Origin: a virus
DNA length: 23,722 nt
IMG/VR virus record: IMGVR_UViG_3300028654_000069
Coordinates: 1-23,722 of that record
Reading direction: 5' to 3' (one strand)
The notes under the pieces were generated by a model. That model was not told the DNA's origin, did no database searches, and saw nothing but the letters and a program-made list of their open reading frames with translations. Shown piece by piece: positions 6,169 through 22,380 of this stretch. Position 1 is the stretch's first letter; the number at the start of each line of letters is the position of its first letter. Both the position numbers and the translations under genes were made by a program.

Positions 6169-6651
6169 ATGTTTAATTGGTTTAAGAAAAAAGACACCTC
6201 TCCTAAGTCATCTGATGATGATGTGCGCAAGTTGCTTTATAAGTATCCTGAATTGAATTCGGTTTCTCAGTTTTGGATTGATTTTGAGAACAAAGTGATG
6301 GCAAAGCATCAGGAGGTATATATCGCTGCTATGCGCGGGATTTTAGGTGAATCCCTAGATGAGATGAGGAAGGTTGTTCTCACTGCAAAATCGATAAAGG
6401 ATGGAATGGATATTGATTTGAGTTTGAGAATCAATGTTGCTTCTGTGGGAGATAGGCAAGAAGAGATCCTCAAAAGGATTGATGCTATGAGATATTTAAG
6501 TTATACGCATCAGCGTAGATATGAGAAATACAGAGATATGGAGAATGAAATGTGGTGCAAAGCACAGAAGGAAGCGATTGCAGAGTTTGATAGGATGGAT
6601 GCTGAGTTATTAAAAATTACAAAAGACATAAAATCAGAAGGTATTAAATGA
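6169..6651 (+). CDS. Hypothetical coiled-coil protein, 160 aa
   Basis: MFNWFKKKDTSPKSSDDDVR... begins with an amphipathic or basic segment that could sit on the membrane surface. It continues in long charged helices (RQEEILKRIDAMRYL; KAQKEAIAEFDRMDAELLK). The Shine-Dalgarno sequence is AAAGGAG. Its stop overlaps the SPFH gene start (ATGA), so a physical or functional link with that membrane protein is plausible. The family is not recognised. Confidence 0.6.
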   Translation: MFNWFKKKDTSPKSSDDDVRKLLYKYPELNSVSQFWIDFENKVMAKHQEVYIAAMRGILGESLDEMRKVVLTAKSIKDGMDIDLSLRINVASVGDRQEEILKRIDAMRYLSYTHQRRYEKYRDMENEMWCKAQKEAIAEFDRMDAELLKITKDIKSEGIK

Positions 6652-7436
6652 ATAAAGAAAAGTGGATCGTAAGACTGAGTCTATTTTTTGCGATATTAAT
6701 AATTATTGTAGCGTTTATTCCCTACTATCAGCTTGATCCTGGTATTACGGGATTGCATTTACGGTTTGGCAGGATCATTAATGTTAATAGAGAGGGTGGC
6801 ATATACTTTAAGATGCCGCTTATTGATAGCGTGATAGAGATGCCCAATGGCATACAGAAATGCTCTATAGAGACATCTGCATTGTCTAAGGACTTGCAAG
6901 CGATCTCAATTGGTATTGATGTTAACTATCGGTACATTAATGAGGTTGAGCTGTATAAAGCTACACGTGGCGAGCCAGAGAAGGTTATTTTAAAGCCATT
7001 CTGTCATGAGTCTATTAAGGCAATCATTGCGCAGTATACCGCAGAGGATCTGATACAAAATAGGCATGAAGCGAAAGAGAAGATCTATGTTGATCTTAAA
7101 TCTCGTTTAAAGCCTCACTATATAGACTTTGTGGAAGTTAACTTTGCGCATGCAGATTTCTCGAGCGAATTTATTCATGCAGTTGAGAGCAAGCAAATAG
7201 CATTACAAGAATCTATGAAGGCAAAGAATCTTACTGAGAAGGTAAGGGAAACTGCCCTACAAACAAAGCTCATAGCAGATGCTGAGGCTTATGCTCAACA
7301 GATCAAGAAACAATCAGCTACGCGTGAATTAGCGCAGTTAAAAGCTATTGAGAAATGGGATGGGGTATTGCCAAGAGTAGTATCAGGAGCTATCCCGTTT
7401 ATAGATTTAGATGATCCTAAAGTGCAGGGTAGATAA
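6648..7436 (+). CDS. SPFH/prohibitin-family membrane protein, 262 aa
   Basis: Residues 7-26 form one N-terminal transmembrane helix (LSLFFAILIIIVAFIPYY). The SPFH (band 7) domain follows at about 30-185, with the pattern PGITGLHLRFGRIINV, GIYFKMPLID, VNYRYINEVELYK, IAQYTAEDLIQNRHEAKEKI and FVEVNFAHADF. A charged coiled-coil C-terminus (ALQESMKAKNLTEKVRE... to about 240) is usual in prohibitins and HflK/HflC. The family builds large cage- or ring-like assemblies in the inner membrane and regulates proteases such as FtsH. The phage copy could shield phage proteins from FtsH or remodel the host membrane; that is inference. It is coupled by overlap to genes on both sides. Confidence 0.85.
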   Translation: MNKEKWIVRLSLFFAILIIIVAFIPYYQLDPGITGLHLRFGRIINVNREGGIYFKMPLIDSVIEMPNGIQKCSIETSALSKDLQAISIGIDVNYRYINEVELYKATRGEPEKVILKPFCHESIKAIIAQYTAEDLIQNRHEAKEKIYVDLKSRLKPHYIDFVEVNFAHADFSSEFIHAVESKQIALQESMKAKNLTEKVRETALQTKLIADAEAYAQQIKKQSATRELAQLKAIEKWDGVLPRVVSGAIPFIDLDDPKVQGR

Positions 7437-19390: not shown

Positions 19391-19732
19391 ATGAGATTAA
19401 CAGAACAACAATCGGCATTTGCGCGTGACGTTGCGAAACTCATCAATTGGATATTTGATAATGGCTTCTCCGTTACCCTCGGAGAGGCCCTCAGAACGCC
19501 AGAACAAGCTGAGCTCTATGCTAAGGAAGGTAAAGGAATAAAAGATAGCCTGCATTGCAAAAAGCTTGCTATAGACCTTAATCTTTTTGATCATGAAGGT
19601 CATTATCTAAGCGATACCAAATCTTATGAGGAGTTTGGTGTTTTCTGGGAAGGTCTTAACCCACTCAATCGATGGGGTGGAAGATTTACTCGTGCAGATG
19701 GCAATCATTTTCAGCGCAATTTGATGGAATAA
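19391..19732 (+). CDS. M15-family peptidase endolysin, 113 aa
   Basis: A compact M15 (D-Ala-D-Ala carboxypeptidase-like) fold is indicated by SLHCKKLAIDLNLF (His55 and Asp62) and the C-terminal RADGNHFQ (His106), the three zinc ligands of the family. EALRTPEQAELYAKEG is the usual preceding helix. Such enzymes cut peptide cross-links in peptidoglycan, either at lysis or as a virion-borne lysin. No signal peptide is visible, so a holin or pinholin would be needed for release. Its place between scaffold and capsid genes is unusual for a lysis gene and leaves open a virion role. The antisense HNH gene overlaps its last 22 bases. Confidence 0.85.
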   Translation: MRLTEQQSAFARDVAKLINWIFDNGFSVTLGEALRTPEQAELYAKEGKGIKDSLHCKKLAIDLNLFDHEGHYLSDTKSYEEFGVFWEGLNPLNRWGGRFTRADGNHFQRNLME

Positions 19733-20136
19733 GTTTCTTGAGTATGATGGAACTTGCATAACCATGTAACTTTAAGCCAGTTTTCTTTCTCATAGGAAGA
19801 ATGATGTGCTTCTGCGATAGGGTTTTTGCATTCTTTGCATGGTTGTTTAAATAATCTTCCATCCCGAATTGCATTACTCACAGCCGTATGAGCCGATCGT
19901 TTATTTTTATTTAATTGGCGCCATTTAATTATTGCTTTAGCTCTAACGTTTCTGCCATTTTTAACAAGCCATTGTCTATAATTATCTTTACCTTTACTGC
20001 TGTGTCGATATTCACGACATTTAGCGTTGTAGCAAATTTTACATCGAGAAAATGGAATATTAAATCGTTTGTCCCAATTAAATTCTGAAAATGACTTTGT
20101 AATTTTGCATATTGTACATGCTCTTTTTTGTTCCAT
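19711..20136 (-). CDS. Free-standing HNH homing-type endonuclease, 141 aa
   Basis: The N-terminus holds a zinc finger (CTIC at 7-10, CKIC at 32-35). The C-terminal HNH domain shows C100-x-x-C103, AEAHHSSY (His111/His112), WLKVTWLC (Cys127) and HH (130-131), the ββα-metal active site with structural zinc. A basic helix lies between the two. This type of small HNH enzyme is a selfish mobile gene in phages. It runs against all neighbouring genes, overlaps the endolysin's end and has no ORF on its own strand nearby, as expected for a late insertion. It may promote spread of itself or of the nearby capsid introns. Confidence 0.85.
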   Translation of the reverse strand: MEQKRACTICKITKSFSEFNWDKRFNIPFSRCKICYNAKCREYRHSSKGKDNYRQWLVKNGRNVRAKAIIKWRQLNKNKRSAHTAVSNAIRDGRLFKQPCKECKNPIAEAHHSSYEKENWLKVTWLCKFHHTQETYSIKLR

Positions 20137-20385: not shown

Positions 20386-22380
20386 ATGGCAATTACTACT
20401 ACTAGTTCTCTGCCAGCACCCGTTCAACAGTCGTTTAGTTATAAACTGTTAGCGGTGCCGGTGCCAAATATGATCCACAAGATTCCTGCCATGCTTAAAA
20501 ACATGCCAAGAAACGGTGGTACAACTCTACGTATGCGTAGATACAATCCATTAAACGTTGCAATGGTTCCATTAGGAAATTCAGGCGTTACTCCTCCAGC
20601 TCAGAATCTGACTGCTGTGGATATCGATGCTAAGATTTCATTTTACGGTTTTGCATAAGGTGCCGTAAATCTGGTTTTGTCATTTAGACCTACGTAATCT
20701 TGAATGAACAAGTTACGTTACAAAACCAGGATCCCGTTAAATGAAAGCGGGATTAAAACCTACCCTGATTGACTTGGAAGCCTAAGGCGAAAGCTAAGGT
20801 GACAAGGGCCAAGGACAACGATTAAGAATTACGCATAGGATGAAGATGAAATCTAGAATTAAGTTTACGAATATCCTCGAAACAGAGTTGGCGAGCATCA
20901 ATACTTTCTTTGGAAAGTTTGTTGGATCCCAATTTTGCTGTGTAGGTCTTTCTGAATCTTATCATGATTTCGCACTGTCTTCTTTTGATAGTGAGATAAG
21001 GAAGAATTTGTTCACACAGATCAAGCAATCTATCTCCAGTAGCAATCCAACTGAAAACTTCTCGAGTGAACTTCTTAGTGGAAGTAGTACGAGTAGCGGC
21101 AGAATTGGTTCCACTGAAGGTTTGATTCAACCAATCTATGAGAACATAATCCGTATTATCGATCTTCAAAAGACCACGATAATGCTCAGTTACATAGCCA
21201 TCTCCCGATTTTTTGGGGATAAGGCCAATGTAAAAGCATCCTTCTCCATCCACAATGCCTGCCATGTAAGCCAAATCAACTGGTTTATAAGTGGTTGGAA
21301 CGTAATCCTCAGATCGTTTGTAGTATTTTCGTCTTTCTTTCATAGAATCCTCGTTTTAATAGAACAGTATTACTATATAAGTATAAACGAAACAAAACTA
21401 CTTGTCCAGGCTGAACGACTTAGCGGGTGGGACTCTGTATTTACCAGGGTATGCGAAAGTCTGAACTCATATCGAAAGTATGAGAGAGAGATCCGAAGAG
21501 GTTTCTCCGCCAAATGTAAAAATTTGGTCATAAAAGTAACAGAGTGTTTAAACGAATGTGCAGCACGTCTTGGCGTGTCACTTCGTCAAACAGAAGATCA
21601 GCTTACACGCGATATGCTTGCTTCAACAGCAGCATTCATTAACTGTACTGCTGGTGTGAATGGCGATAATCCGACTGAGTTGACTCGTTCAGATGTTGAT
21701 GATGTTGTTCGTGCCCTATTAGGGAATAACGCGTACACCATTCTTGATAACATCGAAGGTGATGACAAGTTCGGTACAGCGCCTGTTCGTGATGCTTATT
21801 TTGCGTTATGTCATACTGACTTAACAAAAGATATGGATAACGTTACTGGGTTCATTCAAAAGAACCAATATCCATCACCTATGAATGCATTGCGTTCAGA
21901 GTGGGGTGCGATTGGGAACTTACGTTTCTTGATTTCATCTATTGGTTCTACTACTGCAGCAGCATCATCCCTAGGACAGACGGTGTACAACATCTTCTGC
22001 GTAGGTATGGAGGCTAAAATGTTAGGTCTCCTTAAATTTCTTCTGATTGACTTGGAAGTCCTACGGGATCACAAGGGGCAAGCGAAAGCAGCCTGAACGA
22101 CTAAGTGAAGAAACCTCGAAAGAGGAAGCGATAGTCTGAACTCTATGGAAACATAGAGAGGAATCTCCGAAGAGGGAATCCCGCCTAGAAATAGGTCATA
22201 AAAGTAACAGAATTGTATGCATGTATAGAGCAAGATGGGTATTCAGCTCAGTTCATATATCGTCCGCCTATTTATGATGGACCACTTGCGTTGAACGCAT
22301 CGGTCGGTTATAAGTTCGCAGAAGTACCTCGGATTCTCAATGACCTATGGGTCTTGAATCTTCGTTGCACATTAGCGTAA
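20386..22380 (+). CDS. N4-gp56-type major capsid protein, 315 aa, interrupted three times
   Basis: The exons are 20386-20649, 20688-20737, 21547-22015 and 22216-22380. Joined, they keep one frame. The joins read KISFYG|TYVILNEQVTLQ, NQDPV|LNECAARLGVSL and VGMEA|YACIEQDGYSA, and the protein ends LNDLWVLNLRCTLA. The YG-x-YV...QDPVL block and the RQTEDQLTRDML block are typical of the N4-gp56 capsid family, which forms the HK97-like icosahedral shell. Exon 2 is only 50 nt. Two interruptions are complete group I introns; the first is a 38-nt insert lacking a core. Unspliced message would stop three codons after exon 1. The Shine-Dalgarno is TAAGGA. Confidence 0.88.
20650..20687 (+). other. 38-nt core-less mini-intron with group I guide sequences
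   Basis: It breaks the capsid frame and carries in-frame stops. The exon end UUUACGGU (20642-20649) pairs perfectly with GCCGUAAA (20662-20669), with U-G at the junction, as in a group I P1. AGGU (20658-20661), directly 5' of that guide, pairs with the first bases of the next exon, ACCU (20688-20691), as in P10. The insert ends in G, as group I introns do. No P3-P8 core fits in 38 nt. CUGGUUUUGU (20671-20680) also pairs with ACAAAACCAG (20720-20729) at the end of exon 2. Confidence 0.75.
20738..21546 (+). ncRNA. Group I self-splicing intron in the capsid gene, 809 nt, carrying an antisense endonuclease gene
   Basis: P1 joins exon AUCCCGU (20731-20737) with guide GCGGGAU (20747-20753), seven pairs with U-G at the splice site. 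P3 is CCUACCC with GGGUGGG; P4 is CUUG/CAAG; P5 is GCCU/AGGU with an inner GC-GAAA-GC. P6 (GGACAA/UUGUCC) is the loop that holds the endonuclease gene. P7 is CGACUU with AAGUCUG, followed by a P9 hairpin and the shared GGTCATAAAAGTAACAG end. The intron ends in G at 21546; P10 may be UUU/AAA. Splicing joins DPV to LNECAARLG. Confidence 0.88.
20822..21343 (-). CDS. LAGLIDADG homing endonuclease, antisense inside the intron, 173 aa
   Basis: The motif LAYMAGIVDGEGCFYIG (about residues 24-40) is a single LAGLIDADG helix with the catalytic acidic residue. One motif implies a homodimer. The body (YRGLLKIDNTDYVLIDWLNQ; FSWIATGDRLLDLCEQILPY; IKRRQCEIMIRFRKTY) fits the family's alpha-beta saddle. The enzyme would cut intronless capsid genes and drive homing of the intron. 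It is encoded on the strand opposite to the capsid gene, with its own Shine-Dalgarno (GAGGA, four bases before the ATG), so it must have its own promoter or come from read-through of antisense transcription. Confidence 0.9.
   Translation of the reverse strand: MKERRKYYKRSEDYVPTTYKPVDLAYMAGIVDGEGCFYIGLIPKKSGDGYVTEHYRGLLKIDNTDYVLIDWLNQTFSGTNSAATRTTSTKKFTREVFSWIATGDRLLDLCEQILPYLTIKRRQCEIMIRFRKTYTAKLGSNKLSKESIDARQLCFEDIRKLNSRFHLHPMRNS
22016..22215 (+). ncRNA. Group I self-splicing intron in the capsid gene, 200 nt, no ORF
   Basis: P1 joins exon GGAGGCU (22009-22015) with guide GGUCUCC (22025-22031), with U-G at the splice site. P3 is UUUCUUC with GAAGAAA; P4 is CUUG/CAAG; P7 is CGACUA with UAGUCUG; P8 is CCUC-GAAA-GAGG; P9 is UCUAUG-GAAA-CAUAGA. 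The shared end GGTCATAAAAGTAACAG is followed by AATTG. Removal joins GMEA to YACIEQDGYS in frame. Confidence 0.9.

Follow-up and report, generated by a model that had tools for sequence, protein, structure and literature searches.

A core-less mini-intron in a phage capsid gene and its probable excision by the core of a neighbouring group I intron

The major head (capsid) gene of the phage analysed here is interrupted by a 38-nt insert. Very probably, this is a non-autonomous group I intron that has lost its core and is removed by that of a complete group I intron lying 50 nt downstream. Sequence comparison with related phages establishes the exact boundaries of the insert, the conservation of its P1 helix and terminal guanosine, the covariation of P10 and of a further helix (hereafter the bridge), its co-occurrence with an adjacent intron, and the existence of full-length relatives at the same site.

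Interruptions of the capsid gene and guides of the insert

The window (the whole stretch of 23,722 nt that was analysed) is a single 23.7-kb IMG/VR virus record carrying terminase, portal and major head genes. Together, the exons of its capsid gene comprise 315 codons and a stop codon, matching in length the gene that a relative (L003) has without interruption. They are arranged as follows, with P1a and P1b denoting the P1 helices of the insert and of the downstream intron, respectively.

20386-22380, plus strand: major head (capsid) gene, with three interruptions of 38, 809 and 200 nt
20386-20649, plus strand: exon 1, codons 1-88, ending ...FYG (full-length relative: PHROG 1357 major head protein)
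20642-20649, plus strand: 5' strand of P1a, exon sequence UUUACGGU with the splice-site U (predicted fold)
20650-20687, plus strand: putative mini-intron, 38 nt, guide-only, without core, with a final G
20658-20661, plus strand: intron strand of P10, AGGU, its position 3 being paired in all distinct inserts
20662-20669, plus strand: 3' strand of P1a, the internal guide sequence (IGS) GCCGUAAA, shared by full introns at this site
20671-20680, plus strand: 5' strand of the bridge, CUGGUUUUGU, inside the mini-intron
20688-20737, plus strand: exon 2, TYVILNEQVTLQNQDP plus 2 nt
20688-20691, plus strand: exon strand of P10, ACCU, the first bases of exon 2
20720-20729, plus strand: 3' strand of the bridge, ACAAAACCAG, in exon 2 and adjoining P1b
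20731-20737, plus strand: 5' strand of P1b, AUCCCGU, of the complete intron
20738-21546, plus strand: complete group I intron with a P3-P9 core (by alignment), proposed catalyst for both introns
20747-20753, plus strand: 3' strand of P1b, GCGGGAU, the IGS of the complete intron
20822-21343, minus strand: homing-endonuclease-like ORF within the complete intron (PHROG 5046, E 2e-22)
21547-22015, plus strand: exon 3
22016-22215, plus strand: third intervening sequence, a 200-nt group I intron without ORF
22216-22380, plus strand: exon 4, with the stop codon

The PHROG 5046 label of the intron-borne ORF is HNH endonuclease, and its translation contains a LAGLIDADG-like motif. Another endonuclease-like ORF (19711-20136, minus strand; PHROG 2340, E 4e-20) lies just upstream of the capsid gene and is possibly a free-standing homing endonuclease. 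Elsewhere in the window, positions 6648-7436 encode a protein with an SPFH/Band 7 domain (Pfam, E 1e-22).

A sequence-only reading of the window had located the insert at 20650-20687 from a break in a conserved capsid block, and this position proved to be exact: when the uninterrupted FYG-TYV junction was sought in relatives, two of them (L003 and L009) were found to read FYG-TYVILNEQVTLQNQDPV-LNE without break. Both guides described in that reading were recovered, namely P1 between the end of exon 1 and the IGS, with the U.G pair at the splice site, and P10 between AGGU and ACCU. In addition, a third helix that the reading had overlooked pairs the part of the insert that lies 3' of the guide with the exon directly 5' of the P1 of the next intron. 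In the predicted fold of a 119-nt stretch, P1a, the bridge and P1b form three adjacent hairpins (z = -4.98).

The inserts found in this and related phages thus share several hallmarks of group I introns: a P1 with U.G at the splice site between the 5' exon and the IGS, a P10 between the IGS flank and the 3' exon, and a terminal guanosine. What they do not contain is a P3-P8 catalytic core, as 28-53 nt are too short for it and the core sits in the downstream intron; since there is no room for a core, the insert is not classed as an autonomous group I intron. A conserved P9.0-like sequence was likewise sought ahead of the terminal G of the mini-introns and none was found, unlike in the aligned full introns, which end in AACAGA followed by 2-4 nt and a final G.

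Recurrence at a single codon junction

Relatives of exon 3 and exon 1 were gathered by protein search of viral contigs, without reference to the insert; many of them were uninterrupted, and others carried a short insert at the identical junction. A pattern scan of IMG/VR for P1, IGS and exon start added further loci, and removal of duplicates and of three unrelated genome hits left 69 distinct inserts from many metagenomes, 28-53 nt long (median 34), all at the codon junction FYG|TYV (a further insert, in L282, has Trp following the Thr). With one architecture recurring there in 69 distinct sequences, the insert is neither a chance feature nor an assembly error. The P1 loop of the longest mini-intron (L105, 53 nt) additionally contains a TTTCAATTTGAAA inverted repeat. 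In a tblastn search with 158 reference ORFs from 14 loci, the capsid insert was the only recurrent short insert found. A scan of genome contigs gave one true match, L243; its 4.4-kb contig was assigned to a Methylococcaceae MAG, which offers a weak hint at the host.

Since the P1/IGS letters and the final G were prescribed by the scan pattern, they carry no independent weight within the set of 69. The protein search, in contrast, required nothing about the insert, and all short inserts found by it have a final G and the guide GTGCCGTA; moreover, TACGGT precedes the insert in 22 of 22 protein-found loci and is present in 7 of the 81 genes without insert. P10 does provide independent evidence: the pattern placed no constraint on its position 3, where the third Thr-codon base faces a base of the insert, and this position is paired in 69/69 inserts (A-T 6, C-G 47, G-C 6, T-A 10), with a maximum of 52/69 over 20,000 permutations. 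By the best capsid tree, this Thr base underwent a minimum of 12 changes.

All 69 inserts disrupt the frame or introduce an in-frame stop. Short frame-breaking inserts in coding genes are also known from translational bypassing (T4 gene 60 and yeast mitochondrial inserts; PMC5009743), and programmed bypassing of the 38 nt, as in T4 gene 60, would suit both the size of the insert and the stop codon shortly past a Gly codon, the take-off codon of T4 gene 60 being likewise a Gly codon, GGA (PMC5009743). A GGN triplet nevertheless occupies the landing position (the last triplet of the insert) in 0/69 inserts, so that take-off and landing codons are mismatched, and bypassing gives no role to the splicing-guide covariation of P10 or to the association with an adjacent intron. 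It was rejected for want of a Gly landing triplet and on the P10 covariation, and is extremely improbable.

Equally hard to credit is a joining of the insert's 5' splice site to the 3' site of the downstream intron, by which the intervening exon would be skipped in frame, as in Twort orf142. The stretch skipped would amount to 17 codons, and there are known precedents for such skipping: the tandem group I introns of Twort orf142 and of Coxiella 23S also combine two splicing events flanking a short exon (23-34 nt, against about 27-51 nt in the two main phage families), both introns there possess cores, and exon skipping is the unusual product (PMC10136302). P10, however, covaries with the exon immediately 3' of the insert, exon 3 of the window starts with UUU and shows no match to the P10 strand AGGU, and the 17 residues are retained in intronless relatives. 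Exon skipping was rejected on the P10 match to the adjoining exon and on these retained residues.

The adjacent intron and the bridge helix

If the insert is a core-less group I intron, which core could remove it? Alignment of the downstream intron (20738-21546) with its relatives revealed P1, P3, P4-P6, P7, P8, P9, P10 and a terminal G, with covariation of P3 and P7 across the aligned introns. Rfam at gathering scores gave no match in the window, L073 or L030 (for L073 none even at E <= 1), and the core was for this reason demonstrated by alignment; RF00028 does match related introns (E 3e-5 to 7e-4), though below the gathering score.

Among protein-found loci with enough sequence, an adjacent intron (codons 86-125, within about 100 nt downstream) was present in 22/22 genes with the insert and in 17/81 without it, the other 64 insert-free genes lacking one (Fisher p = 3e-12, to be taken only as a guide since related sequences are not independent). 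The 22 do not include six further insert-bearing contigs, on which either the sequence or the gene breaks off short of the next exon. On the capsid tree (a quick search with many weak branches), the insert was gained or lost at least 30 times, and of the nine independent pairs that lie on supported branches, a median of seven show the intron following the insert, and none the reverse. Capsid introns as a whole occupy many sites in loci L002-L150, at about codons 9-14, 27, 31, 52, 70, 79, 93, 97, 99, 104, 105, 118, 144, 181, 190, 223, 261 and 274.

The core might instead be supplied in trans by another phage or host intron, adjacency then reflecting co-inheritance; the sequence-only reading had named another intron in trans as its alternative. 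Engineered group I spliceozymes do excise 64-100-nt introns in trans (PMC4094466), and several loci with a mini-intron have additional introns in the capsid gene. However, the adjacent intron is the only capsid-gene intron in 11 of the 22 insert loci, none of the 19 genes with only distant introns carries the insert, and the end of the bridge adjoins the P1 of the adjacent intron. Supply in trans is accordingly the less likely option and, as an explanation of the insert, decidedly improbable, whereas removal by the core of the intron 50 nt downstream, which the same reading had favoured, is supported comparatively by the adjacency and by a covarying bridge that tracks the site of that intron.

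In families 1 and 2, the bridge runs without interruption over 7-13 pairs in 53/62 inserts, a length of 7 being attained by 2.5% of shuffled tails; the linkers are 1-3 nt to the IGS and mostly 0-1 nt to P1b. The uninterrupted bridge has only 5 pairs in 9/62 inserts, and it is weak in L125. It covaries pair by pair, and in family 2 the cognate exon pairs better than non-cognate ones in 1917/2064 comparisons. Furthermore, the bridge partner moves with the insertion site of the neighbouring intron, at four sites (after codons 97, 104, 105 and 118; computed for codons 97 and 105, and read from the printed sequence for codons 104 and 118). Two loci (L151 and L200) were grouped by eye with L120 at the codon-118 site and belong to neither family. 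Many family-2 introns (after codon 97; L105, L174 and others) have a long P1b loop with a recurring TTCTTTGAAATTTCTTGGTTTTG-like stretch, which is absent from other family-2 introns and for which no role was found.

A helix of this type is not without precedent. The sequence-only reading knew of no described minimal guide-only group I intron, a statement that needs qualifying, as small putative group I introns of 63-75 nt, mostly devoid of core, are present in the SSU rDNA of the fungus Phialophora (PaSSU and relatives) and have been proposed to descend from larger introns (PMC3160393). Like the phage inserts, they have a P1 with U.G, a P10 and a helix (there called PM) between the middle of the intron and the 3' exon (PMC3160393). 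They differ in residing in nuclear rDNA, in their final U and assigned P7, and in that no adjacent intron is invoked, one of them reportedly self-splicing in vitro (PMC3160393); the phage inserts are shorter (28-53 nt), interrupt a protein gene, end in G in every protein-found case and adjoin a complete intron in all testable cases. Could the mini-intron then splice by itself without a group I core, as the 67-nt PaSSU intron of Phialophora americana is reported to do in vitro without a second intron (PMC3160393)? The shared helices speak for it. Against it stand the complete intron adjoining 22 of 22 testable mini-introns, a bridge partner that tracks the site of this intron, and a length that leaves little room for the P7 of PaSSU, the final base of which is U and not G. 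Self-splicing is very unlikely.

Excision by the neighbouring core could proceed as follows. Of a group I intron, the mini-intron would have retained P1 including the U.G pair, P10 as its guide to the 3' exon, and the terminal G, but nothing of the catalytic core. With the intervening exon looped out by the bridge, the base of P1a would meet that of P1b in one junction at the entrance to the P3-P8 core of the neighbour, leading into P3. This core would take P1a first, and the mini-intron would be cut out using P10, joining FYG to TYV; it would then dock P1b and remove its own intron. Recognition of the 3' splice site is the weakest step of this scheme, as no P9.0-like sequence is conserved before the final G. 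The system is likely to represent a natural ribozyme removing an intron not its own, with one core, two interchangeable P1/P10 guides and a bridge delivering the second. Spliceozymes engineered from the Tetrahymena ribozyme similarly use a group I core to remove a separate core-less intron; they are designed, act in trans and define the 3' splice site via P9.2/P9.0 (PMC4094466, PMC4509937), whereas the phage system would be natural, in cis, and based on P10 and the bridge.

Origin, dependence and significance

The proposal that the insert arose from a group I intron by deletion gains support from full-length introns with the same P1/IGS at its exact site, found in five loci (L250, L252, L253, L256 and L257) by a scan for the same guide and then for a group I core. 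In L250, two full introns occur in tandem, the second after a short exon at the family-2 site, and both match the Rfam group I model below the gathering score. If the upstream member of such a tandem pair lost its core, a mini-intron followed by a full intron would result. A scan of 34-64-nt tails for intermediates with a partly deleted core gave no convincing candidate, the only match recognised as a capsid gene being L169, already known.

Once formed, the mini-intron would tie the capsid gene to the complete intron, since a precise loss of the latter would leave behind an insert that cannot be spliced; one may speculate that the mini-intron persists because it has made the phage dependent in this way. 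The group III introns of Euglena chloroplasts are comparable as remnants (90-120 nt) of self-splicing introns thought to need an outside catalyst, and differ in deriving from group II introns and in the trans-acting factors proposed for them (PMC4424553); the phage case allows both the source intron and the probable catalyst to be named. The literature searched, in which subscription papers are scarce, yielded no account of a natural intron being removed by the core of another group I intron.

Spliceosomal introns, like those of group III, are thought to descend from self-splicing introns that lost their catalyst and became dependent on an external one. For group I introns, this step has been engineered before, but natural examples whose catalyst had been identified were absent from the literature searched. 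Because such introns escape standard gene calling as well as Rfam at gathering scores, misannotation of the major head gene is likely in this phage group. If true, the present reading would describe a natural intron borrowing the catalyst of another, at a single site of a single gene where full introns, tandem full introns and a mini-intron with a full intron can be compared in dozens of natural variants.
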